From Clostridia bacterium (GTDB lineage Bacteria; Bacillota; Clostridia; Peptostreptococcales; Anaerovoracaceae), in assembly GCA_024689085.1 (NCBI GenBank), contig JAILDT010000020.1, positions 1 through 52,496 of the forward strand: DNA of 52,496 bases. The letters are read 5' to 3'. Position 1 is the stretch's first letter, and every line of letters begins with the position of its first letter. The notes beneath the pieces are model-generated. The model had not been told where the DNA came from, did no database searches, and saw only the letters and a list, made by a program, of their open reading frames with translations. Positions 394-51,960 of the stretch are shown in pieces. Both the position numbers and the translations under genes were made by a program.

Positions 394-2247
394 GTGAGCA
401 GATTGGAATTCAAACAGAAAAGCCAGGCTCAGAAGGAAGTCGAAGCTCTGTACGGAGATATCCAGCGCAGAGTCATCGCCAGCCCTCCGAGCCAGTGTCA
501 GGTGGACATGACTTGTTCGTTCCTGAAGCTGTGCCAGGCGCAGTCCTGCGGCAAGTGCGTCCCTTGCAGAGTCGGCGTCTACCAGATGATCCAGATTCTG
601 GAGAACATCCTGGACATCGACACAGAAAGTTCAACGGAGGATCTGGTGCTTTTGCAGAAGACTGCAGAAACCGTTCGTGATTCTTCGGACTGCGCTATCG
701 GATGGGAAACCGCAGAGATCGTTCTCAAGAGTCTCCAGAGTTTCAGCGAGGACTATATGTCCCACATCGAGAGAAAACGCTGCTCCGACAGCGTAACGGA
801 TCTGAGAAACACCGTTCCTTGTGTTTCCAAGTGTCCTGCGGAAGTCGATATCCCTGGCTATATTTCACTGATCAAGGCCGGCAGATATGACGACGCAGTG
901 AAACTGATCAGAAAGGACAATCCGTTCCCGACGGTATGCGCGCTCATCTGTGAGCACCCATGCGAGGGACACTGCAGAAGAAACATCCTGGACGCTTCCA
1001 TCAACATCAGAGGTCTGAAGATGTTTGCAGTTGACAACTGTTCCGATACTGTTCCGATTCCGGAGATCAGAGAGAACACCGGCAAGAAAATCGCCATCAT
1101 CGGCGGCGGTCCGAGCGGACTGACTGCTGCATACTACCTCTCCCTCATGGGACACAAATGCAAAGTCTTTGAGAGAAGAGCACAGCTCGGCGGAATGCTC
1201 CGCTACGGCATTCCAAGCTATCGTCTGCCAAGACACAGACTCGACTGGGACATTAAGTCCATCCTGTCTGCGGGCATAGACGTAGAACTGAACGCGGATA
1301 TCAACACAGAAGCGGCCGTAAACAAGCTGATGAAAGACTACGACGCGGTCTACGTCGCCATCGGCGCGCACAACTACAAGATGATCGGCATCGAAGGTGA
1401 AGAAAGCAAGGGCGTCATCTCCGCAGTAGATATGCTCCGCGGAATCGGCGACGACAAGATGCCGGACTTCAAAGGCAAGAGAGTCGTCGTTGTCGGCGGC
1501 GGCAACGTAGCCATGGACGTCGCCCGTACAGCGATGCGTCTCGGCGCAGCGCATGTGGACATCGCATACAGAAGACGCAAGGTCGACATGACTGCCCTGC
1601 CTGAGGAAATCGACGGCGCGATTGCGGAAGGCTGCCGTCTGCTGGAACTGAGAACTCCTGTCAGAATCGAGCATGACGAGGAGGGTAACGTCAAGGCTCT
1701 GGTGGTTAAACCGCAGAAGGTCGGACCGTATGACGCCTCCGGACGTCCGAAATCCTTCCCTGCGCAGAAGGACGAGCAGGTCCTCGAGTGCGACATCGTC
1801 GTCGGCGCGATTGGACAGGAAATCGATTCCGAAGTATTCGAAAAGGCCGGCGTATCTGTTCTCTGGAAGAAACTGAATACAGACGAATCCATGGCTGTGG
1901 AAGGTATGGAAGGCGTCTTCGCGGGAGGCGACAGCGTAACCGGTCCTTCGACCGTAATCAACGCCATCGCCCAGGGCAGAGTCGCCGCTGCGAATATCGA
2001 CAATTACCTCGGATACAATCATGAAATCAAAGTTGAACTCGACATCCCTGAACCGGAACTGGACGACTACATCCAGTGCGGAAGATCCGAACTCACCAGC
2101 CGTTATCCTGATGAAAGAAACCGCGACTTCGACGGATTTGAAAACGGTCTTCTCCTTGAGGAGGCCCTTCAGGAAGCCAGCCGCTGTCTGAGATGTGACT
2201 GCAACAATCTCGGCGCATTCAGAGGAGGGAGGCACACATCATGGTAA
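394..2247 (+). CDS. NuoF-type 4Fe-4S C-terminal domain fused to GltD-like FAD/NAD(P)-dependent oxidoreductase
   Basis: N-terminal SCGKCVPCRVG (NuoF 4Fe-4S motif); then CVSKCPAEVDIPGYISLIKAGRYDDAVKLIRKDNPFPTVCALICEHPCEGHCRR and dinucleotide folds IIGGGPSGLTAAYYL and VVVVGGGNVAMDVARTAMRLGA...YRRRK, typical of glutamate synthase small subunit-like proteins. Confidence 0.9.
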   Translation: MSRLEFKQKSQAQKEVEALYGDIQRRVIASPPSQCQVDMTCSFLKLCQAQSCGKCVPCRVGVYQMIQILENILDIDTESSTEDLVLLQKTAETVRDSSDCAIGWETAEIVLKSLQSFSEDYMSHIERKRCSDSVTDLRNTVPCVSKCPAEVDIPGYISLIKAGRYDDAVKLIRKDNPFPTVCALICEHPCEGHCRRNILDASINIRGLKMFAVDNCSDTVPIPEIRENTGKKIAIIGGGPSGLTAAYYLSLMGHKCKVFERRAQLGGMLRYGIPSYRLPRHRLDWDIKSILSAGIDVELNADINTEAAVNKLMKDYDAVYVAIGAHNYKMIGIEGEESKGVISAVDMLRGIGDDKMPDFKGKRVVVVGGGNVAMDVARTAMRLGAAHVDIAYRRRKVDMTALPEEIDGAIAEGCRLLELRTPVRIEHDEEGNVKALVVKPQKVGPYDASGRPKSFPAQKDEQVLECDIVVGAIGQEIDSEVFEKAGVSVLWKKLNTDESMAVEGMEGVFAGGDSVTGPSTVINAIAQGRVAAANIDNYLGYNHEIKVELDIPEPELDDYIQCGRSELTSRYPDERNRDFDGFENGLLLEEALQEASRCLRCDCNNLGAFRGGRHTSW

Positions 2248-3959
2248 ACGTAACAATAAACGGAAGAAAAACTTCAGTGCAGCAGGGAACCACCATCATG
2301 AATGCTGCCAAATCAATCGGTATAGAGATTCCGCACATCTGTTACTGGGAGGGACTCAACGATATCGGTGCCTGCCGTATCTGTGTTGTTGAACTGGAAG
2401 GCAAAGACAAACTCGTTTCTTCCTGTAATACGGAAGTCGAAGAAGGTATGGTCATCTACACCAACAGCCCTAAAGTAAGACAGGCGAGAAAGATCAACGT
2501 TCAGCTTGTTCTGGCGGAGCACGACTGCAAATGCGCGACATGTCCGAGAAGCGGTAACTGCGCACTGCAGGGCATCGCAAGAGATCTCGGTATCGTCGGC
2601 ACCTCCTTCGTAGAGAATCCTGATGACTACAGATGGGATGAATCCTTCCCGCTCATCAGAAACGCCACTAAGTGCGTAACCTGTCTGCGCTGCGTTCAGG
2701 TCTGCGACAAGATCCAGAACATGGGCGTATGGGAAAAGCTTGGCTCCTCATTCCGTACGACCGTCGGCGTAACTGACGGTGTGCAGATCAGAAATGCCAA
2801 CTGTACCCTCTGCGGTCAGTGCATCACCCATTGCCCTGTCGGTGCGCTCAGCGAGAGAAACGACACAGACAAGGTACTCGACGCGCTTGCTGATCCTGAA
2901 ACTGTCACCATGGTTCAGTTCGCGCCGGCCGTCAGAGTTGCCTGGGGCGAAAAGATCGGCATGAACCGAGTCGAGCAGACAACCGGCAAACTGGTCGCTG
3001 CCCTGAAGCAGATCGGTTTCGACTACGTGTTCGATACCGTTTATACTGCTGACATGACCATCATGGAAGAAGGCAGCGAACTGATTGACAGAATCGGACA
3101 CAAGGACGAACACCCGTGGCCGATGTTCACCTCCTGCTGCCCGGGCTGGCTTAGATTCGTTCAGCTCGAGTATCCGGAACTCATACCGAACCTCTCCACT
3201 GCCAAATCACCGCAGCAGATGTTCGGCGCAATCGCGAAAACTTACATGGCCGAAAAGCTCGGCGTGGATCCTGCAAAGATCTGCTGCGTATCCATCATGC
3301 CTTGCACGGCCAAGAAATATGAGTGCGACGAGCATACGCTCAAAGACTCCGGATTCAAGGATGTCGATGTGGTCCTCACCACAAGGGAATTGGACAATCT
3401 GATTTCCATGGACGGAATCAAAGCCGCACAGCTTCCTGAGATGCCGTTCGATTCCTTCTTCGGTGAAGGAACCGGCGCAGGCGTCATCTTCGGCGCGACA
3501 GGCGGCGTTATGGAGGCGGCTCTGCGTTCCGCATACTTCCTGATCACCGGTGAAAATCCTCCTGTGGACGCATTCCAGAATGTCCGCGGTATGGATGGCT
3601 GGAAAGAAGCCACCTTCACGGTTGCAGGAATCAAACTGCGCATCGCCGTTGCCAACGGACTGGGCAACACGAGGAAACTCATCGAAGCCATCAAGGCCGG
3701 CGAAGTATCCTATGATTTCGTTGAAATCATGGCTTGTCCTGGTGGATGCTCCGGCGGCGGCGGACAGCCGATCCACGACGGCACCGAGATGGCAGCACTC
3801 AGAGGAAGCGAACTCTACAACATCGATAATACACTGGAGATCAGATTCTCACACGAGAATCCGACCGTCACCATGTCCTATGAGGAGTACTTCGGCAAAC
3901 CGAACTCCGAGAAGGCGCATCACCTGCTCCATACAGACGTATCTCAGTGGAGGCTGTAA
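2241..3959 (+). CDS. hydA: [FeFe]-hydrogenase catalytic subunit, group A
   Basis: 2Fe-2S ferredoxin domain, HDCKCATCPRSGNCALQ (His/Cys cluster), two 4Fe-4S motifs, and H-cluster motifs TSCCPGW, MPCTAKKYE, EIMACPGGCSGGGGQP. Confidence 0.96.
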   Translation: MVNVTINGRKTSVQQGTTIMNAAKSIGIEIPHICYWEGLNDIGACRICVVELEGKDKLVSSCNTEVEEGMVIYTNSPKVRQARKINVQLVLAEHDCKCATCPRSGNCALQGIARDLGIVGTSFVENPDDYRWDESFPLIRNATKCVTCLRCVQVCDKIQNMGVWEKLGSSFRTTVGVTDGVQIRNANCTLCGQCITHCPVGALSERNDTDKVLDALADPETVTMVQFAPAVRVAWGEKIGMNRVEQTTGKLVAALKQIGFDYVFDTVYTADMTIMEEGSELIDRIGHKDEHPWPMFTSCCPGWLRFVQLEYPELIPNLSTAKSPQQMFGAIAKTYMAEKLGVDPAKICCVSIMPCTAKKYECDEHTLKDSGFKDVDVVLTTRELDNLISMDGIKAAQLPEMPFDSFFGEGTGAGVIFGATGGVMEAALRSAYFLITGENPPVDAFQNVRGMDGWKEATFTVAGIKLRIAVANGLGNTRKLIEAIKAGEVSYDFVEIMACPGGCSGGGGQPIHDGTEMAALRGSELYNIDNTLEIRFSHENPTVTMSYEEYFGKPNSEKAHHLLHTDVSQWRL

Positions 3960-33651: not shown

Positions 33652-34629
33652 TTACCCCAACCTCTTTAAGTTAGTGTAGGCTCTTTCGATTCTTTCAAAC
33701 AGCAGGTCATCCAACGGCAGATCCTCAATCTCAAGGCCTGCCTCAGTGCGTCTGTTTCGCACACCCAGAAAAGCTCCGTCTTCGCCATCTCCGAACCAGG
33801 CGGAACTGTATTGCCAGTGGCCCCGGAGATTCTCCAGAATCGAGATCGCCCCGGAAGAAACCGCAGGTGCGATGTATGGCTTGAATCCCGTCTCCCGGAC
33901 CTCGATATTTGCCTTTACCGTCAGAGCAGTCAGTTCTTTTGATTTTGCATCATCGTAATGATAAATGTCATCAGCGACTACCAAATCACTTCCGTGAGGC
34001 CCAAATACGCGGCCGTTTGTAATATAAGACGAAAAAGCCGGATTCCGGTGCGCATGATACGCTGCCCGTCCGTTCATCACGCCCAGCCCAAAGCCCTGGA
34101 TCCGGGAAGCACTGATTCCGCCCCGGAGTGCTGCTTTGCACAGTGGATCTACCGGATCGGAGACCACGAAAAAATCGCCGTCAAAATTTGTCTGGACCGC
34201 TGCCTTCGCATAGGTTTCGATCAGTTTCGTGTTTTTTTCCAGCTGGACCATGCGCACGTCAACATCGTTCTGCGACAGATCAGGAACGCCGGTCGAGGCG
34301 CAGAAGACAAAGACATCGCACTGAAAAAGATCGCCCATTTCAACTGGCAGAACTTCAGGAAATGCGGATGGATCCTCCGGCATCGCGATCTGGTTCAGTT
34401 CCTGTTCCCACCTGCTGACATTCTTCTCATTGATATCGCAGATTCCGATTTCAGAAACGATATCATTTCCAAGAAGAAGCATGGCCAGGGCCAAGGTTCC
34501 TCCCACATCGCCCATGGCGAGGATGTTGACGCGGTTCTTCTGATCCTTTTGCAGCTGGTATCCCGGAACAATGAATGTGTTGTCCCTCTGTATTATTTCA
34601 CCCTGGTGCAATTCGCTCAGTTTTCTCAT
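33652..34629 (-). CDS. Divergent lactate/malate dehydrogenase-like NAD-binding protein
   Basis: VNILAMGDVGGTLALAMLLLG Rossmann start, VFVFCASTGVPD, VVSDPVDPLCKAAL (cf. VSNPVD), GVMNGRAAYH, FGPHGSDLV (cf. GEHG). Confidence 0.7.
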   Translation of the reverse strand: MRKLSELHQGEIIQRDNTFIVPGYQLQKDQKNRVNILAMGDVGGTLALAMLLLGNDIVSEIGICDINEKNVSRWEQELNQIAMPEDPSAFPEVLPVEMGDLFQCDVFVFCASTGVPDLSQNDVDVRMVQLEKNTKLIETYAKAAVQTNFDGDFFVVSDPVDPLCKAALRGGISASRIQGFGLGVMNGRAAYHAHRNPAFSSYITNGRVFGPHGSDLVVADDIYHYDDAKSKELTALTVKANIEVRETGFKPYIAPAVSSGAISILENLRGHWQYSSAWFGDGEDGAFLGVRNRRTEAGLEIEDLPLDDLLFERIERAYTNLKRLG

Positions 34630-37600
34630 ATCAGTCCTTTCAGTCTTTGCAGCCGTTCTATATCATCCTCTACATATGTGCTCGCCGCCAGCGCCCTGTC
34701 GAAGTCCAGACATTGGCCGACATCTGTCAGCTTCGGCGCGTTTACGACCTCCGGCAGTCTCTGCAGAGTGAGTTTCCTCTGATACTCTTTCTGATACTCT
34801 TCCTCTAATGTCTTGAGAATATCCCTGGCGTTTTCCAGGCACACCATCGAAAAGTTATAGATGGCTGCTTTGCTACACTGATTCGACAGGAATTTCGGAA
34901 GAACATACGGAAGGATCAGATTGATTGCCGTAAAGTCATCATCGATCGTTCCCGTATGACGTTCCACACCGTCTCCGCCGATGAACGGATACAGAGAGGA
35001 TTCGACGAACCATGCTTTCAGATTCGGCAGGAAGTAGACACTGTCCACGGATCTCTTCTGAACCGCCATGAGATCCTTCCCATTTCCGGACAGGATGCCC
35101 ACGAGCAGTTTGTGGACATGTACGCCGTTTTCGGTGAGAACAGGGTCGAGCCTCTGCATGCGGTAGCCCTTGTGCAGAATATCATCTACCAGAATCGCGC
35201 TGCGGCGGAACGAACGAATCGTTCTTACCTGATCTTCTATCCCCGCGTAGTTCGGGTACTCTTTAATACGGAAGCTGGAAAGGTCCGGTGAAAAACTTTT
35301 TTCCAGATGCAGTGTTTTCGTCACGGTATTCGGCACTGCCATATGATTCAGGATCTTGCCGAACGGAACGCACATATACGGTCCGAGAACGCGCTTCTCC
35401 CCTTCTTCAGACGGCACGCCGTTTTCTTCTGTGATCATCTGAACAAGCTTGTTGTGCATCACAAGAGAATTATAGGAAAGAACCAGTGTATCGGGGAACA
35501 TTTCTGTCAGTGACTGCTGCAGCCTGGTGTGGGCTTTCCTGAGTACCTTCTCGACTCTCGGATTCTTGTTCAGCGGGCTCTTCAGCACGGTACTCATATT
35601 CTGGATCAATGTTACCGGACTGCGCATATCGACACCGTAACAGCCTGACGGCGCTCCGTCGATCATGATTTCTTTGAACCCCTGTCTCAGAAGGACATCG
35701 ATCAGTTTCTTGTCTTTTTTGCTGTTTGGCGGTTCATGATAAATCGCATAAGTATAATCATCCTTCAGCGCTTCAGATAATGTTTCCGTGAGAATCAGCT
35801 GATAGGAATCCTCATCGAGCGAAAGAGAATCCGCCCAAATCCTGTCCAGAACCAGTGTGTTCCCGGGAGCCCGTTCCCGAATAAAGGACGCAAGCTTCTG
35901 ATTACCGAATTCTTCATAGAGCATCCTGGTTTCAACAGGGTGAACGAAGGCCTCTGCAACAACGGCTCCATCCTTCGCTCCATCTGAAATGCTGACCGAA
36001 TGCAATACTCCTCCGCTGCGGTCGCTCTGGAAACGCAGATCTCTTGCTGACAGGATATATTTATACATCGGCTGACGGAGATACAGCGCATTGTCGTAGA
36101 TATAATTCTGAACGACAGGATCGATCAGACTGGCGATGTCCCTGTTCTCATCAATGTTGTCGCGTATTTTGGTGGAGCTGATATCTTCCAGGTGCGGAGG
36201 CAGAGTCAACTCAATGACTTCCCCTCGTATTTTGGATCTTCCTTCCTGATAGCTCCTGCCGCTGGTGTTGTCCCTTTCGGATCCTTCTCTCTGGAAAACA
36301 ATATGATTCATTCCATGGATGGAATCTGGTTCCGGATCATTTCTATAAGAACTTGCATTGGCGATCACATCGCTCCCGACTACCATATATAGTTCCTTCC
36401 CGGGAAGAAGCCTCCGGAGTCTGCGGATGTCAGAAGGATTCGCGATATTGATCGGCTGATCATCCGGAAAGATATATGTGCCTATCAGATCCGCGCATGT
36501 CATGTTCATGATCCGTCTGCGATGCTGTCGAGGCTGTGTGTTCTTTGACCATGAAAACTCATCCAGTGCAAGGTACACCTCATATCCGGCATCACGGATC
36601 GCAGTAACGATACCTTTGTGACCTAAGGAGAACGGATCGAATGTTCCAGGGAAAAATGCTGCTTTGTCCATATCCTGAAGCGGCAGCTCTCCGCAGAAGA
36701 ACTGATAGTCCGAAATGAATCTGTAAACGTGATTCAGAGAGGATGCGTTGCTGAAGAACCGCAGCATGTCACCCTTTCGGTCTTCAATCAGCGTAAGCAT
36801 TTTTTTGCATAGAATCACAAAGATTTCTGCCTTTTGCTGCAATGATAAAAGCTCTGACCCGAACACGGATCTGCCCAGCACCTGAAATGCTTCCTGACTG
36901 ACGACTCTGTGATAATTTGCCATGCCCATAAGGAGCATGCCGATGATTTCTCTGCAGCGGTCGCTGTCTTCATCATTCGCATTCTGCAATATGACTCCCA
37001 GCGTATCCAGCGTTACAGAAACAACCTTCTCATTGACATTGTACAGAAGCTGTTGAATATCCTTCATGACTTCCGTCTGCTCATCCGGATGGAGCTTCGT
37101 AATCAGAATTCCCAAGTATTCCGGGATATATCTTGAAAACTGATAATCTCCGATTTCCAGCCCTCTCATCAGTTCCACGACGATCTCGTGTTTCTGTTCT
37201 CTGGTGAGCCGGTCGAAAATCAGGATCAATCCCCTGCCCGCTTCATGCCGGATCGTAACACGTTCGCTGACCTTCAGCAGATTCGAGAAATGTGCTGCCG
37301 TGTAAAAGACCTCTTCCTGCTGGCCGCTCATGATTCTGTCCAGCATGACTTCGATGTTGACGGCCTTGACGACCCATGGCGTGTCGATTCTGAGATCATC
37401 ACGGAACATGGCAGTATAATCGGCTTCTGTGATCGCCGGGGCTTCAAATGAATCAGACAATCGAAGCGCTTCTGCTGTTCTTTCCTTTAGAAATGCTGCG
37501 CTGATCTGATATTCGCCTTCCACAGGATACGTCAGAAGAGTTGCAAGGCGGTTGGCAATCTGCGGATATGCAGCGCCGTCTTTTTCTTCCCGCTGGATTG

Positions 37601-39449
37601 CTTCGGCCATTTTCCTGATGATACGAAGCGCAGCTACTTTGATTTCCGGTTCACTGCGCTCCATTGCTTCCTCGCAGAAACCGGTAATCGTCCTGATGTT
37701 CTCCTCATGAAGGACATCGAATGGGATCTCCAGAACTGTATCGAGCAGAATAAACATCATGGCTTCCGTTCGCCCGTGCTTTCTCAGCAGCTCCATAAAC
37801 GCACCGATATACTCAGGGATAAGCGTTTCAGACGCATATTCCAGCAAAGCCTGGAAGGTGAATTTCAAAGAATAACCCATCCACCTCTGCTGACGTTCCG
37901 TTCTCTGTAAATCAGGTTCTGTGACAATCGCCAGATGCTCTTCCCAGAGTTTCCGGCTGTCAATGATATCCTCCGGAAGTGTCGCTCCATTCGGAAGATC
38001 TTTGCGGTATTCTTCATCATAGCATGCGATGATTTTTCCAATCAGAACGGCAGCCTGCCTGCGGATATCTCCGCCGCGCTGTACCAGCAATTCCTGAAGG
38101 AAATGAACCGCCATGTATTTCTGCTCTTCGCTCAGGTAGGTGAAGTATTCTTCAATTGTTCCGATGTATGCCCGGATGTTTTCCCATTGCTTTTCACTTC
38201 TTGCATTTTCAAGAAGATCTCCAAATTCGCGTACACTTCCAAACCGGTGCATGACATCGATATTGTGATCAATGGCAAGATGCTTCAGCCGCACGACTGA
38301 TTCATGCGCATCCAGCAACGAGGCGTCCGTCCACTGGAGCCGCTCTGTCTGTACTTCATCCAGTTCCGTTCTGACGCCCAGACTCACCATGTAGTCCTCA
38401 AAATCCCTGAGCTTGCGGTATACTCTGACATACCGGTCATGCTTTGTCTGGTCAACGTTTTCAAGTTTGCCAAGAATTACATCGAATGCCTGTCTGAGGC
38501 TGTAGAATCTGATCTCTTCGCGACCATTTTCATCCCGGCTGCTTTTTACCCGGAAATCCGCGTAGATCAGAAGCAGATTTTCACAGGACAGATTCTCGAG
38601 TTCCAGATCCCAGGTTGAATGGTTGCTCGCGATATGCGCGATACCCGGCAGTTCCATGCGCAAAAGCAACTCATCTGTATAATAATAATGCAGGTGCGGT
38701 ATCCTTGGGATTTCTTCTTCCCTGCATCCGAATTTTCCAATATCATGCGCCGCGGAAGCGGCAGATACCATCGCCAGATCGACAGGAACATCATTGCGGC
38801 GAAGCTGTCTTGCCATATGCATCGCGACATAATGAACGCCGGCGATATGACCTAAAGTGTTAAATGGCTGCAGCATTTTACCTATCACAAGAAACTCATA
38901 CAGATAATAGTCTCTGCTGAGTTTCATAAAGCGCATATATTCTTTCCCCGCCGGAAACTGACTTGCTTCTTCTTCGCTCAGAAACTGAAAATCAAAATCC
39001 GGGATTACACGCTGACGTCTCTGCCTGTCGAGTTCCAGCATCACATGAAAAACCTCACAGAAGAGCAGTTCCGGCAAAAGCGATTCCTCGCCCGGCATCT
39101 CAGCTCCCTGCTTCGGATACATCCACAGCAGGATCCTCCTGTAGATACTGTCCAGCCATCCTCCGGCAGGTTCTTTGAATCCGGGATGAAATCTGCTGCC
39201 CGCTTCAACGAGGTATGGGCGGCAGAGATGCAGTATTTGCTCACAATCGATCGGGGTTTCTCCGGTTTCCGGGTCATCCCGAAACAGCTCTGCCAGTGCA
39301 TCCGCAAGATCCTGAAGCTTTAATTCTTCCATCAGCGTCTGCATATCCCTTTTCTTCATGCCGACTTTTCTGGTGAAACTGCCTCTCTGCAAACTGCGCT
39401 GCAGGTTTTTATATATAAACTTGCCTGTGATCCTGTTTGCCTCCATCAT
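34626..39449 (-). CDS. Giant multidomain protein: HD domain, helical repeat region, NadD-like nucleotidyltransferase, GNAT-like region, PRTase-like C-terminal region
   Basis: HD ligands in GVHYVAMHMA...SAAHDIGKFG...HLHYYYTDEL...ASNHSTW...IYADFRV; long helical region; FFPGTFDPFSLGHKGIV and DISSTKIRDNI (adenylyltransferase motifs); IDVLLRQGF; SAILVDDILHKGYRM (PRPP-loop-like). ORF extends to a TTG at 39482; ATG at 39449 preferred. Confidence 0.85.
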   Translation of the reverse strand: MMEANRITGKFIYKNLQRSLQRGSFTRKVGMKKRDMQTLMEELKLQDLADALAELFRDDPETGETPIDCEQILHLCRPYLVEAGSRFHPGFKEPAGGWLDSIYRRILLWMYPKQGAEMPGEESLLPELLFCEVFHVMLELDRQRRQRVIPDFDFQFLSEEEASQFPAGKEYMRFMKLSRDYYLYEFLVIGKMLQPFNTLGHIAGVHYVAMHMARQLRRNDVPVDLAMVSAASAAHDIGKFGCREEEIPRIPHLHYYYTDELLLRMELPGIAHIASNHSTWDLELENLSCENLLLIYADFRVKSSRDENGREEIRFYSLRQAFDVILGKLENVDQTKHDRYVRVYRKLRDFEDYMVSLGVRTELDEVQTERLQWTDASLLDAHESVVRLKHLAIDHNIDVMHRFGSVREFGDLLENARSEKQWENIRAYIGTIEEYFTYLSEEQKYMAVHFLQELLVQRGGDIRRQAAVLIGKIIACYDEEYRKDLPNGATLPEDIIDSRKLWEEHLAIVTEPDLQRTERQQRWMGYSLKFTFQALLEYASETLIPEYIGAFMELLRKHGRTEAMMFILLDTVLEIPFDVLHEENIRTITGFCEEAMERSEPEIKVAALRIIRKMAEAIQREEKDGAAYPQIANRLATLLTYPVEGEYQISAAFLKERTAEALRLSDSFEAPAITEADYTAMFRDDLRIDTPWVVKAVNIEVMLDRIMSGQQEEVFYTAAHFSNLLKVSERVTIRHEAGRGLILIFDRLTREQKHEIVVELMRGLEIGDYQFSRYIPEYLGILITKLHPDEQTEVMKDIQQLLYNVNEKVVSVTLDTLGVILQNANDEDSDRCREIIGMLLMGMANYHRVVSQEAFQVLGRSVFGSELLSLQQKAEIFVILCKKMLTLIEDRKGDMLRFFSNASSLNHVYRFISDYQFFCGELPLQDMDKAAFFPGTFDPFSLGHKGIVTAIRDAGYEVYLALDEFSWSKNTQPRQHRRRIMNMTCADLIGTYIFPDDQPINIANPSDIRRLRRLLPGKELYMVVGSDVIANASSYRNDPEPDSIHGMNHIVFQREGSERDNTSGRSYQEGRSKIRGEVIELTLPPHLEDISSTKIRDNIDENRDIASLIDPVVQNYIYDNALYLRQPMYKYILSARDLRFQSDRSGGVLHSVSISDGAKDGAVVAEAFVHPVETRMLYEEFGNQKLASFIRERAPGNTLVLDRIWADSLSLDEDSYQLILTETLSEALKDDYTYAIYHEPPNSKKDKKLIDVLLRQGFKEIMIDGAPSGCYGVDMRSPVTLIQNMSTVLKSPLNKNPRVEKVLRKAHTRLQQSLTEMFPDTLVLSYNSLVMHNKLVQMITEENGVPSEEGEKRVLGPYMCVPFGKILNHMAVPNTVTKTLHLEKSFSPDLSSFRIKEYPNYAGIEDQVRTIRSFRRSAILVDDILHKGYRMQRLDPVLTENGVHVHKLLVGILSGNGKDLMAVQKRSVDSVYFLPNLKAWFVESSLYPFIGGDGVERHTGTIDDDFTAINLILPYVLPKFLSNQCSKAAIYNFSMVCLENARDILKTLEEEYQKEYQRKLTLQRLPEVVNAPKLTDVGQCLDFDRALAASTYVEDDIERLQRLKGLI

Positions 39450-39478
39450 GCTTCCCTTTCCCGTTTTTCTGCAATATT

Positions 39479-40009
39479 TCAATCGCGTTCATAAACGCTC
39501 TTGCCATGGCTGTCACAGGCCACGACGAGGGGCAGTTTATTTACTTTCAGCGCCCTGATGGCTTCTGTCCCCAGTTCGTCGAAGGCAACGACGTCTGCAG
39601 ATTCGATGCACTGCGAGATCAATGCAGCCGCTCCTCCGATGGCCGCGAAGTAAACCGCCGTATTCTCTGCCATAGCATCCATAGCTTCCCGGCTTCTCGG
39701 CCCCTTGCCGATGGTCGCGCGGACGCCTCTTGCCAAAAGCTCCGGCGTATACGGGTCCATACGGCCGCTGGTCGTCGGACCTGCCGATCCGATAGGATAT
39801 CCGGGTCTCGCCGGCGTTGGTCCGGCGTAATAGATCATTGCCCCTTCCAAATCAAAGGGCAGTTCCTCTCCATTCTGTATCATAGTCTGAAGCTTTTTAT
39901 GCGCAGCGTCTCTTGCCGCATAGATCGTGCCGGTCAGCACGACCATATCTCCGGCTTTCAGTTCAGCTGCCATTTCCTTCGTCAGCGGCTGGGTCAGTTC
40001 GTATCTCAT
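39479..40009 (-). CDS. Fumarate hydratase class I, beta (C-terminal) subunit
   Basis: GTIYAARDAAHKKL, IYYAGPTPARPGYPIGSAGPTTSGRMD. Confidence 0.93.
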   Translation of the reverse strand: MRYELTQPLTKEMAAELKAGDMVVLTGTIYAARDAAHKKLQTMIQNGEELPFDLEGAMIYYAGPTPARPGYPIGSAGPTTSGRMDPYTPELLARGVRATIGKGPRSREAMDAMAENTAVYFAAIGGAAALISQCIESADVVAFDELGTEAIRALKVNKLPLVVACDSHGKSVYERD

Positions 40010-40848
40010 AAGGTCACCTCTTCATGCCTGCATACGTGGCAGTTGATATTGACAGCTACAGGGAGCCCTGCGATGTGAGTCGGCGCAGCGATAATATTCA
40101 CTGCCAGCGCTGTCGTTTCTCCTCCGAACCCCTGGGGACCGATGCCGAGAGCATTGATCCTTTCGAGCAGCCGCTGCTCCATTTCCGCATAAAACGCGTC
40201 TTTATTGTGCTCGCCCAATGGCCTCAGAAGGGCTTTCTTCGCCATGAGGGCGGCCTTGTTGAAGTTTCCTCCAATACCGACGCCAACGACGATCGGCGGG
40301 CACGGATTGCCGCCGGCCTGCCGGACAACGTCTACAATGGCGTCCTCGGCGCCTGCCGCGCCGGCTCCCGGCATCAGCATCCTGATCTGGCTCATGTTCT
40401 CTGAACCGAATCCTTTCGGCGCTACTGTAATTTTGACTTGTTCGCCGGGGACGATTTCGGTCACGATGTCCGCCGGCGTACTGTCTCCTGTATTCACTCT
40501 GTCAAAGGGATCCCTGACGATGGTCTTCCTGAGATAGCCTTCCAGGCATCCCTGCCGGACGCCTTCCTGGATGGCTTCCGTAAGATCTCCACCGGTCAGG
40601 TGGACATCCTGTCCGATTTCCATAAAGACACAGGCCATTCCCGTGTCCTGACAGACCGGAAATACGCCTTCCTCTGCAATGTCGATGTTTTTCTCAATGC
40701 TGTCGAACACATACCTTGCCAGCTCACCGGTTTCCTTCTGTGCACATTGGCGGATACAATCCTTCACATCCTCCCCCAGGTGATAATTGGCGTGTATGTA
40801 CAGGTCCCGGATGGCTTCTGTGATTGTCTTTACGTCGATTTCCCTCAT
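40006..40848 (-). CDS. Fumarate hydratase class I, alpha subunit
   Basis: PVCQDTGMACVFMEIG, PKGFGSENMSQIRML, GIGIGGNFNKAALMAKKALLRP-like region. Confidence 0.93.
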   Translation of the reverse strand: MREIDVKTITEAIRDLYIHANYHLGEDVKDCIRQCAQKETGELARYVFDSIEKNIDIAEEGVFPVCQDTGMACVFMEIGQDVHLTGGDLTEAIQEGVRQGCLEGYLRKTIVRDPFDRVNTGDSTPADIVTEIVPGEQVKITVAPKGFGSENMSQIRMLMPGAGAAGAEDAIVDVVRQAGGNPCPPIVVGVGIGGNFNKAALMAKKALLRPLGEHNKDAFYAEMEQRLLERINALGIGPQGFGGETTALAVNIIAAPTHIAGLPVAVNINCHVCRHEEVTL

Positions 40849-40865: not shown

Positions 40866-42050
40866 TTATCTGTATCGTCTCGCGACGCCCGTATCACGCG
40901 CCGCCTGGGCGACTGCCTTTGCGACGGCGTCCTTTACTCTCGGGTCGAAGGCTTTCGGGATAATGTAATCTGCCGACAGTTCTTCGTCGGAGATCAGTTC
41001 CGCCAGCGCCTTCGCCGCCGCCAGTTTCATCGGCTCGTTGATGTCGGATGCATGAACGTCGAAGGTTCCCCGGAGGATCCCCGGGAAGGCCACAACGTTG
41101 TTGATCTGGTTCGGGAAGTCCGAACGGCCTGTAGAGACTACCGCCGCGCCGCCTGCTTTCGCCTCGTCCGGAAAGATCTCCGGCGTCGGGTTCGCGCAGG
41201 CGAAGATGATCGGATCCTTCGCCATGGAGGCGACCATTTCCTTCGTCACTAGACCTGGTCCTGAGACGCCGATGAAAACATCCGCGCCCTTCATGGCGTC
41301 CGCAAGGCTTCCTGTCATGCCTTCAAGGTTCGTGACCTCCGCCATCTCTTCCTTGATCCAGTTCATGTCTTCTTTTCTGCCTTTGTAAATGATGCCGCCC
41401 CGGTCTGTCATAATGATATCCTTAAATCCGGCAGACAGCAAGATGTTGGTGATGGCGATCGCTGCAGCGCCCGCTCCGGAAGTGACGATCCGAACGTCCT
41501 CCTTCTTCTTTCCCACCACCTTCAGGGCGTTGGTCAGGCCCGCCAGGGTGATGACTGCTGTTCCATGCTGATCGTCGTGAAAGATCGGAATATCGCAGCG
41601 CTCCTTCAGCTTCCGCTCGATCTCGAAACATCTCGGCGCACTGATATCCTCCAGGTTGATGCCGCCGAAAGAACCCGAGATCTGATAGATGGTCTCTACG
41701 ATCGTATCCACATCCTGGGACTTCACACAGAGCGGAAAGGCATCCACGTCGCCGAAGGATTTGAAGAGTACGCATTTGCCCTCCATGACCGGCATGCCGG
41801 CTTCCGGGCCGATATTGCCGAGGCCCAGCACGGCGGATCCGTCGGTCACGACAGCGCACAGATTGTACCGCCGTGTCAGCGTATAGCTTTTTTCAACATC
41901 TTTCTGGATCTCCAGACATGGCTGGGCCACGCCCGGGGTATAGGCCAGAGAGAGGTCTTCTTCATTGTTTACTGGAACGGTAGCGATGACCTCGATCTTT
42001 CCGTTCCATTCTTCCTCGTGGAGCCGTAGGGACTCCTTCGCGCAATCCAT
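40866..42050 (-). CDS. NAD(P)-dependent malic enzyme
   Basis: DLSLAYTPGVAQPCLEI, VTDGSAVLGLGNIGPEAGMPVMEGK, FHDDQHGTAVITLAGL, FACANPTPEI. Confidence 0.95.
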   Translation of the reverse strand: MDCAKESLRLHEEEWNGKIEVIATVPVNNEEDLSLAYTPGVAQPCLEIQKDVEKSYTLTRRYNLCAVVTDGSAVLGLGNIGPEAGMPVMEGKCVLFKSFGDVDAFPLCVKSQDVDTIVETIYQISGSFGGINLEDISAPRCFEIERKLKERCDIPIFHDDQHGTAVITLAGLTNALKVVGKKKEDVRIVTSGAGAAAIAITNILLSAGFKDIIMTDRGGIIYKGRKEDMNWIKEEMAEVTNLEGMTGSLADAMKGADVFIGVSGPGLVTKEMVASMAKDPIIFACANPTPEIFPDEAKAGGAAVVSTGRSDFPNQINNVVAFPGILRGTFDVHASDINEPMKLAAAKALAELISDEELSADYIIPKAFDPRVKDAVAKAVAQAARDTGVARRYR

Positions 42051-51087: not shown

Positions 51088-51441
51088 CTACAATAATCCC
51101 GCTTTTGCACCTATTTCCTGTTTCAATAACGGAACATCCTTTTCAACGATTTCCCATATAATCTTATTATTTACTCTGACATATCCATGAGCAATCACAT
51201 TCCTGGTTCCATAAATCTCGTGCCATGGTACAGTATTCATAATCTCCTTGCAGTTGTCTGAAAGACGATTTGTCGCTTCACCTATCTGAAATACATTCAT
51301 CAAAACCGCATCCCTGTAATCCTCATCCAGATTAAACTGTTCAAATGTATTTCCAAAGCGTTCAATAATGCTCATAATTCGGTCGCAGTAATCAAGAATT
51401 GCTGCCAGATTATCCATATCCCTATCACTGATTTTTCTCAT
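51088..51441 (-). CDS. HepT-like (DUF86) putative toxin
   Basis: RNVIAHGYVRV (R-x4-H-type HEPN motif) and small alpha-helical protein downstream of a MNT-type nucleotidyltransferase. Confidence 0.88.
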   Translation of the reverse strand: MRKISDRDMDNLAAILDYCDRIMSIIERFGNTFEQFNLDEDYRDAVLMNVFQIGEATNRLSDNCKEIMNTVPWHEIYGTRNVIAHGYVRVNNKIIWEIVEKDVPLLKQEIGAKAGLL

Positions 51442-51922
51442 ATACAGTCACATAATCCTTTTCTATATGCTCAATCAATCTTTTTGCTGCACGGGTATTA
51501 TCTGCATGAAGCGCATCTGCCATAACAAGATCCACGTTTTTCCCAAAGGCACTCCTGATACCTCCCTCTAAAGCGAGATATTCTTTCATATCCCGGATGC
51601 TGTCACACTCGATCAGAAGATCGATATCACTGTCTTCAGTCGCCTCTCCTCGGGCATAGGACCCAAACAAGATGGCTTTTTTTATCCCATATTTTTTTGC
51701 AATCGGCAGTATCAGCAGCCTTATAGCCTCAATTGACAATACTGATTCATTACCGCAGATGTTATCTCTTATCAGGTTTTTGATATACCCCTGTTTATTT
51801 CCCACTTCATCCAGCTTCGCCAGAATATCCGCATCATTGGTCATATTGAACTTAAACATTATCGATTTGGTATGATTTCTGTCATACTTTGCGGATGCCT
51901 TTCGTTGTGCTTCTGTAACCAT
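51425..51922 (-). CDS. MntA-like minimal nucleotidyltransferase (putative antitoxin) with N-terminal ribbon-helix-helix-like domain
   Basis: AILFGSYARGEATEDSDIDLLIE (GSx10DxD); N-terminus AKYDRNHTKSIMFKFNMTNDADILAKLDEVGNKQGYIKNLIRDNI resembles Arc/MetJ-type RHH proteins. SD AGGAGGG before ATG 51922. Confidence 0.85.
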   Translation of the reverse strand: MVTEAQRKASAKYDRNHTKSIMFKFNMTNDADILAKLDEVGNKQGYIKNLIRDNICGNESVLSIEAIRLLILPIAKKYGIKKAILFGSYARGEATEDSDIDLLIECDSIRDMKEYLALEGGIRSAFGKNVDLVMADALHADNTRAAKRLIEHIEKDYVTVYEKNQ

Positions 51923-51938
51923 ACATAATCCCTCCTGC

Positions 51939-51960
51939 AATATAAGTATATACTTATATT
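51939..51960. repeat. Perfect 22-bp palindrome, candidate operator
   Basis: AATATAAGTATATACTTATATT, perfectly self-complementary. Confidence 0.85.

Follow-up and report, generated by a model that had tools for sequence, protein, structure and literature searches.

A giant multidomain protein of Clostridia, co-inherited with two redox-type proteins, combines YqeK-like HD, NadD-like and phosphoribosyltransferase-fold domains

What does a bacterium that already encodes a separate NadD and YqeK do with a single chain of about 1,600 amino acids that carries a relative of each? This question is raised by a gene on contig JAILDT010000020.1 of a Clostridia bacterium (assembly GCA_024689085.1), of which we analysed a stretch of 52,496 nucleotides, the window. 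A preliminary description made from the letters of the window had proposed that this gene, here called the giant, encodes a machine for the synthesis, turnover or sensing of nicotinamide adenine dinucleotide (NAD) or related dinucleotides. Beyond that description, we found co-inherited partner genes, a wide distribution and a natural split of the protein. The giant is the first gene of a three-gene unit, followed by a protein resembling lactate and malate dehydrogenases (LDH/MDH) and a four-Cys iron-sulfur flavoprotein. Because its active sites are invariant, its base pocket is altered, its partners are near-obligate and its HD and NadD functions can be separated, we read it, tentatively and at a little under an even chance, as a single chain that assembles an adenine dinucleotide and edits it (or turns it over), with two redox partners alongside; that dinucleotide is probably not plain NAD. 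The architecture and the three-gene unit appear to be new, and the component folds are already known. No published description of the architecture was found in the literature searched, whose reach stopped short of preprints and most subscription papers; within it, the initial impression that no characterised protein is built this way held.

Gene, domains and active sites

The frame of the giant runs uninterrupted from 34626 to 39482 on the minus strand (1618 codons counted from TTG 39482, as are all residue numbers here), in line with the single open frame for a protein of about 1,600 residues first described. The in-frame TTG upstream shares bases with the fumarase beta stop codon (TTGA). ATG 39449, which encodes Met12 and is preceded by a purine-rich AGGAAAAGGA-like ribosome-binding site, is the likelier start; it gives one chain of ~1,607 amino acids and the same end as in the preliminary description. 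A chance origin is excluded because hundreds of homologues of ~1,600 amino acids have an identical architecture. Mean majority-residue frequency is 0.73 in the HD domain, 0.71 in the NadD-like domain, 0.68 in the phosphoribosyltransferase (PRTase) core and 0.43 in the GNAT-fold domain, with a minimum of 0.35 in the first 150 residues and in mid-solenoid. AlphaFold2 models, built from 60-sequence alignments of related loci, were of high confidence for residues 12-935 (predicted local distance difference test, pLDDT, 91; predicted template modelling score, pTM, 0.90) and 926-1618 (pLDDT 88, pTM 0.88). The Pfam and AlphaFold checks that the preliminary description had called for thus back each named domain by fold or motif (Table 1), and no Pfam, NCBIfam, PADLOC or PHROGs model spans the whole chain.

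The proposed YqeK-like HD hydrolase is borne out by its ligands. In all 73 full-length giant sequences used for catalytic-site conservation, H212, H246, D247, K250, H265, H288 and D309 are identical and form a complete YqeK-type metal-ligand set; they are among the near-invariant HD residues together with H217 and C253. This set matches one for one that defined by the structure of Streptococcus pyogenes YqeK (H29, H58, D59, K62, H91, H117 and D135), and YqeK enzymes cleave diadenosine tetraphosphate (Ap4A) (PMC11857287). The complete set of metal ligands and the HDxxK lysine also parallel those of the YqeK (COG1713, Ap4A hydrolase) of the same genome, in the same order and with approximately the same spacing; unlike that stand-alone enzyme, which the host has too, the giant's HD domain sits inside a huge chain. 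Pfam HD matches residues 210-302 (E 7e-4, 20.3 bits against a cut-off of 22), and no YqeK model is among the NCBIfam matches of the giant. The region at ~350-930, first noted as helical and repeat-like, is modelled as a HEAT solenoid; Foldseek against PDB matched the N-terminal half to HEAT proteins (PP2A A subunit, SF3B1, importins), and PF02985 (HEAT) matches 6 of 19 homologues.

A Rossmann-type NadD fold is predicted for the adenylyltransferase domain, as the preliminary description had expected. Pfam CTP_transf_like matches residues 943-1108 over its cut-off (E 1e-7), and Foldseek against PDB matched the C-terminal half to a solved NadD (8aih, E 2.8e-7; template modelling score by target 0.7-0.8). 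NCBIfam NadD models also match, all under their equivalog cut-offs: the best, TIGR00482 (E 2.4e-13), scores 50.6 bits against a threshold of 112.45. The tested NadD residues of PGTFDPF..xH, DEFSWSK, GSD and ISSTxIR are near-invariant across the 73 sequences, and the residue before the His of the GTFDP..GH motif is S in 53 and G in 20.

The domain departs from NadD in its base pocket. When 60 giant NadD domains were aligned with 16 stand-alone NadDs (15 from relatives), the ATP-side motifs GTFDPxxLxH, GSD and ISSTxIR were common to both. SYTxxTL of NadD, in contrast, reads NIANPxDL in giants, the PFK segment becomes an invariant DEFSWSK, and the Trp of GTDSFLKIDTW is replaced by the invariant Tyr1046 of GSDVIANASSY. 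In Escherichia coli NadD, the nicotinate ring is held by stacking against W117 and H45, and its carboxylate by Y118 (PMC8035330); of the nicotinate-pocket features sought, the 60 giants have neither the stacking Trp nor SYTxxTL. Fold and ATP-binding motifs (GTFDP..GH, ISST.IR) are therefore those of NadD (TIGR00482), whereas the pocket is constant within giants yet unlike NadD, which suggests the use of a mononucleotide other than NadD's.

The PRTase-like tail first recognised by its loop is supported by Foldseek matches to uracil and xanthine phosphoribosyltransferases (UPRT and XPRT; E about 1e-4, probability 1.00) and by PF00156, which matches 3 of 19 homologues (best E 7e-4). With the solved UPRT and XPRT members it shares the type-I fold, the acidic pair and the Gly of the phosphoribosyl pyrophosphate (PRPP) loop, at about 10-17% identity. 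D1433, D1434 (72/73), H1437, G1439, R1441 and PNTVTK are near-invariant. Type-I PRPP-binding loops typically read hhhh[DE]DhhTTGxT. In the giant the DD and G are kept in 70-73 of the 73 sequences, and, unlike the Thr-rich loop of UPRT and XPRT, it reads DDILHKGYR, with H and K at the Thr positions and R at the last; an invariant PNTVTK..H.EK segment is added.

Between the NadD-like and PRTase-fold domains, the call of a weak GNAT-like region is supported as to fold: Foldseek matches the C-terminal half to the GNAT protein 2oh1 (E 1.8e-4) and also to mycobacterial isocitrate lyase 2, which has a GNAT-like C-terminal part. The canonical acetyl-coenzyme A (acetyl-CoA) loop, [QR]xxGx[GA], is absent from this domain, where the segment after strand 1208-1217 is an unconserved ADSLSLDEDS. 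Because it is the least conserved named domain (0.43) and lacks the acetyl-CoA loop, it is probably structural or regulatory.

Relation to NAD synthesis

The preliminary description had also suspected that the giant is distinct from the housekeeping NadD, and had proposed looking for a separate nadD-yqeK pair. Such a pair lies elsewhere in the host genome, in a locus that we take, from reading the translations, to be aspS-nadD-yqeK-rsfS; the presumed nadD, between aspS and yqeK-rsfS, encodes 202 amino acids with the motifs GTFDPVHYGH and ISATQIR. PncB (TIGR01513) is present as well. We therefore rejected the giant as the housekeeping NadD/YqeK, given the separate locus, pncB and the replaced nicotinate-pocket motifs, and also rejected it as a substitute nicotinate PRTase, since PncB occurs in carriers and non-carriers of the giant alike.

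The closest precedent is the NadD-YqeK fusion (PRK07152/NF005519; JCVISYN3A_0380), which like the giant joins a NadD-type adenylyltransferase and a YqeK-type HD domain in a single chain. In JCVI-Syn3A, the YqeK domain of the fusion hydrolyses nicotinic acid adenine dinucleotide (NaAD) and its cytosine and uracil analogues, and proofreading of NAD synthesis has been proposed as its role (PMC9426524). The fusion model matches the NadD part of the giant (E 2.6e-9, 36.5 bits against a cut-off of 315). Unlike the giant, the fusion serves housekeeping NAD synthesis, spans 361 model positions rather than ~1,607 amino acids, has the reverse domain order (HD is N-terminal in the giant), and lacks the HEAT, GNAT-fold and PRTase-fold parts and dedicated partners.

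A competing reading is NAD salvage or repair: ordinary NaAD or NAD would be made in one complex from a pyridine base, PRPP and ATP, proofread by the HD domain and supplied locally to the partners. NadD is the giant's nearest adenylyltransferase relative, the fusion offers a proposed proofreader of NAD synthesis (PMC9426524), and of the partners one has an NAD fold and the other is a flavin protein. The genome already holds nadD, yqeK and pncB, however, and other invariant residues have replaced the nicotinate-pocket motifs. The known nicotinate and nicotinamide PRTases belong to the type II fold class, whereas the giant's domain is type I. We consider this alternative somewhat unlikely. Should the product be NAD, the unit would become a lesser novelty, a variation on the NadD-YqeK theme, although a machine that makes and proofreads in a single chain would still be a new principle.

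Partner genes, distribution and a natural split

The two downstream genes track the giant closely. All three stand together in 81 of the 86 loci with sufficient downstream sequence. In a set of 198 genomes from the order, made up of 110 carriers and 88 non-carriers of the giant, 108 carriers and no non-carrier have the dehydrogenase-like gene; the two carriers without it both belong to genus g298 (G533 and G553). Among 61 relatives, it is present in 26/26 carriers and the flavoprotein gene in 25/26, compared with 0/35 of the others in each case. The association holds even within the window's own genus, where the giant is patchy; both partners occur essentially only with the giant. Five loci appear partnerless; four of these genomes carry the dehydrogenase-like gene elsewhere and one (L117) does not.

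Partner 1, whose start overlaps the giant's stop (ATGA), has invariant His212 (in GPHG), Arg126 and Arg188. Partner 2 is two-part, with four invariant cysteines (C212, C215, C220 and C229). The Ldh_1_N and FMN_red matches, the GPHG His and Arg residues and the four-Cys motif tie the pair to the LDH/MDH superfamily and to iron-sulfur flavoproteins. Unlike in LDH, the Pfam match of partner 1 is limited to the N-terminal Rossmann part, and unlike known iron-sulfur flavoproteins, partner 2 has an extra N-terminal domain.

Long homologues of the giant were found in 26 of 61 relatives. Within the order, 102 of 190 good genomes have one, as do 67 of 103 genera; in an even sample across the phylum, it is 8 of 399 genomes. 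A scan of GTDB species genomes gave at least 553 confirmed giant loci. The 80 of these kept for study include Anaerovorax, Anaerotignum, Sedimentibacter, Oscillibacter, Emergencia, Hornefia, Flintibacter and Clostridium fessum. Taken together, three proteins with a readable enzymology are conserved and inherited as a set in roughly half of the order's sampled members and also in other Clostridia, gut isolates among them. Single giant-bearing contigs in one Megasphaera assembly and one spirochaete metagenome-assembled genome could be transfer or contamination. The sole 'plasmid' match is NZ_CP154629.1, a circular, PLSDB-listed Acetoanaerobium noterae sequence with 4 annotated features that, because of its 2.63-Mb size, looks like a chromosome.

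Partners and distribution also bear on whether the giant might modify RNA or another macromolecule, its NadD-like domain adenylylating, its PRTase-fold domain binding or exchanging a base and its solenoid gripping the substrate. HEAT solenoids, the fold found here, often bind macromolecules, and nucleotidyltransferase folds occur in RNA-modifying enzymes such as TmcAL. Pfam and NCBIfam profile searches found no RNA-binding domain in the giant, though, its partners are redox proteins, and a patchy presence in about half of the order speaks against a core RNA modification. We judge such a role very unlikely.

The HD and NadD functions are naturally separated in one lineage (G059 and G490; partly G520 and G560), where two genes replace the giant. 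Subunit A retains all HD ligands and has a broken NadD (SANFDPM or GSFDPMNLGQ, with ISST lost); subunit B lacks the HD domain, keeps the NadD and PRTase motifs intact and adjoins the partner genes. Because the subunits are complementary, the HD and NadD activities appear to be both maintained and separable, and they plausibly work in trans in this lineage. This is the strongest evidence here that both are real activities. Two genomes (G551 and G586) carry second full-length paralogues (L167 6711-11537 and L168 7448-12349) in which HD is kept and NadD is dead (GH to GQ, ISST lost), with no partner genes alongside. Another second paralogue (L034 7489-12372, in G046) has all motifs intact, and there the partners stand beside the genome's other copy. 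Split and NadD-dead copies show that cutting and joining are separable and open to test.

Dead NadD domains in some paralogues, like the GNAT fold without its canonical acetyl-CoA loop, would suit a protein that is mostly scaffold, with several catalytically dead domains and a chain that holds two redox partners. Against this, the main copy has near-invariant motifs in its HD, NadD and PRTase domains alike, and where the protein is split, the loss of NadD function in one copy is made good by another that keeps it. A mere scaffold is barely plausible.

Table 1. Features of the three-gene unit and its upstream neighbours in the window.
Feature	Coordinates	Strand	Basis
Giant multidomain protein gene	34626..39449	-	Frame and homologues
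HD hydrolase domain, residues ~195-372	38367..38900	-	Pfam, conservation, YqeK ligand comparison
HEAT-repeat solenoid, residues ~373-930	36693..38366	-	AlphaFold2, Foldseek, Pfam
NadD-like adenylyltransferase, residues ~938-1138	36069..36671	-	Pfam, NCBIfam, Foldseek, motifs GTFDPFSLGHK, GSD, ISSTKIR
GNAT-fold domain, residues ~1140-1290, poorly conserved	35613..36065	-	AlphaFold2, Foldseek, conservation
Type-I PRTase-fold domain, residues ~1291-1618	34629..35612	-	Pfam, AlphaFold2, Foldseek
PRPP-loop-like motif AILVDDILHKGYR, residues 1429-1441	35160..35198	-	Conservation
Partner 1, LDH/MDH-superfamily Rossmann protein, 325 aa	33652..34629	-	Pfam Ldh_1_N, E 4e-7
Partner 2, Fe-S flavoprotein-like FMN (flavin mononucleotide) reductase, 354 aa	32577..33641	-	Pfam FMN_red, E 3.5e-17
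Fumarase beta	39479-40009	-	Profile search
Fumarase alpha	40006-40848	-	Profile search
Malic enzyme	40866-42050	-	Profile search

Proposed reactions and genomic surroundings

For the reactions, their order, the base and the role of the partners, we infer the following scheme. The PRTase-fold domain would attach a base to PRPP and so form a mononucleotide, onto which the NadD-like domain would move adenosine monophosphate from ATP, yielding an adenine dinucleotide that is neither plain NAD nor NaAD. Wrong or surplus dinucleotides would be cleaved by the YqeK-like HD domain, much as by the YqeK domain of the JCVI-Syn3A fusion. The HEAT solenoid may keep the active sites together and dock the two partners, and the LDH/MDH-like protein and the Fe-S flavoprotein would reduce, oxidise or use the product. 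Of the dinucleotide machine first proposed, the domains, the YqeK-like HD and the non-housekeeping character stand; NAD synthesis is not established, with the ATP motifs kept, the nicotinate pocket replaced and both PncB and NadD present. A bolder version, in which the unit makes and uses a new NAD-analogue redox cofactor with a different base in fermenting Clostridia, many gut species among them, the giant synthesising and proofreading it and the partners doing the redox chemistry, we regard as unlikely. If the product does differ from NAD, common anaerobes would possess a new cofactor or signal.

Several points weigh against the single-chain dinucleotide machine. In hhalign, the giant's HD profile scores weakly against the YqeK of its own genome (probability 46%, E 2e-4), and subfamily-level homology is therefore unproven. 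The PRPP loop is unusual in its H and K. In partner 1, the equivalent of the catalytic Asp, placed by eye, varies (N, H or A in the rows inspected), which makes ordinary hydroxyacid dehydrogenase activity doubtful; this protein may be no classical dehydrogenase. The AlphaFold2 models cover the two halves separately, and the reactions are assigned from sequence and models.

In the window, the malic enzyme and fumarase genes upstream are probably co-transcribed with the giant. They are absent beside an 86%-identical homologue (L027), where pyrG and guaA lie directly upstream; as only the two partners are conserved, we rejected an association with fumarase, malic enzyme, guaA and pyrG, which is local to the window. 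Malic enzyme neighbours the giant in the window, L078 and L085. In about 10 loci (L029, L030, L047, L049, L050, L051 and others) a divergent glutamate dehydrogenase gene adjoins the giant.

Malic enzyme and glutamate dehydrogenase are redox branch points, and Ap4A is a substrate of YqeK enzymes (PMC11857287); both observations would fit a sensor or signalling enzyme that sets the level of an alarmone-like (Ap4A-like) dinucleotide or reads the redox state of NAD(P) to control fermentation enzymes. Yet beyond the two partners the gene neighbourhood is not conserved, the profile searches found no receptor, DNA-binding or kinase domain in the giant, and three strictly conserved catalytic sites fit an enzyme better. 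We hold signalling to be decidedly unlikely.

A link to 2-hydroxyacyl-CoA dehydratase (PF06050) was rejected, as this family is missing from the host genome yet present in non-carriers. A phage or defence origin of the unit was rejected too: searches of the phage collection, PHROGs and PADLOC gave no match, and none of the three unit proteins matches a known defence protein in PADLOC. An MgtE-like gene follows the three-gene unit in about 9 loci. Elsewhere in the window, positions 51088-51940 hold a HepT-like ribonuclease (HEPN) and MNT nucleotidyltransferase pair in a typical toxin-antitoxin arrangement, and at 394-3959 an iron-only hydrogenase gene comes after one for an NADH_4Fe-4S/pyridine-nucleotide oxidoreductase; the two may belong to an electron-bifurcating hydrogenase.

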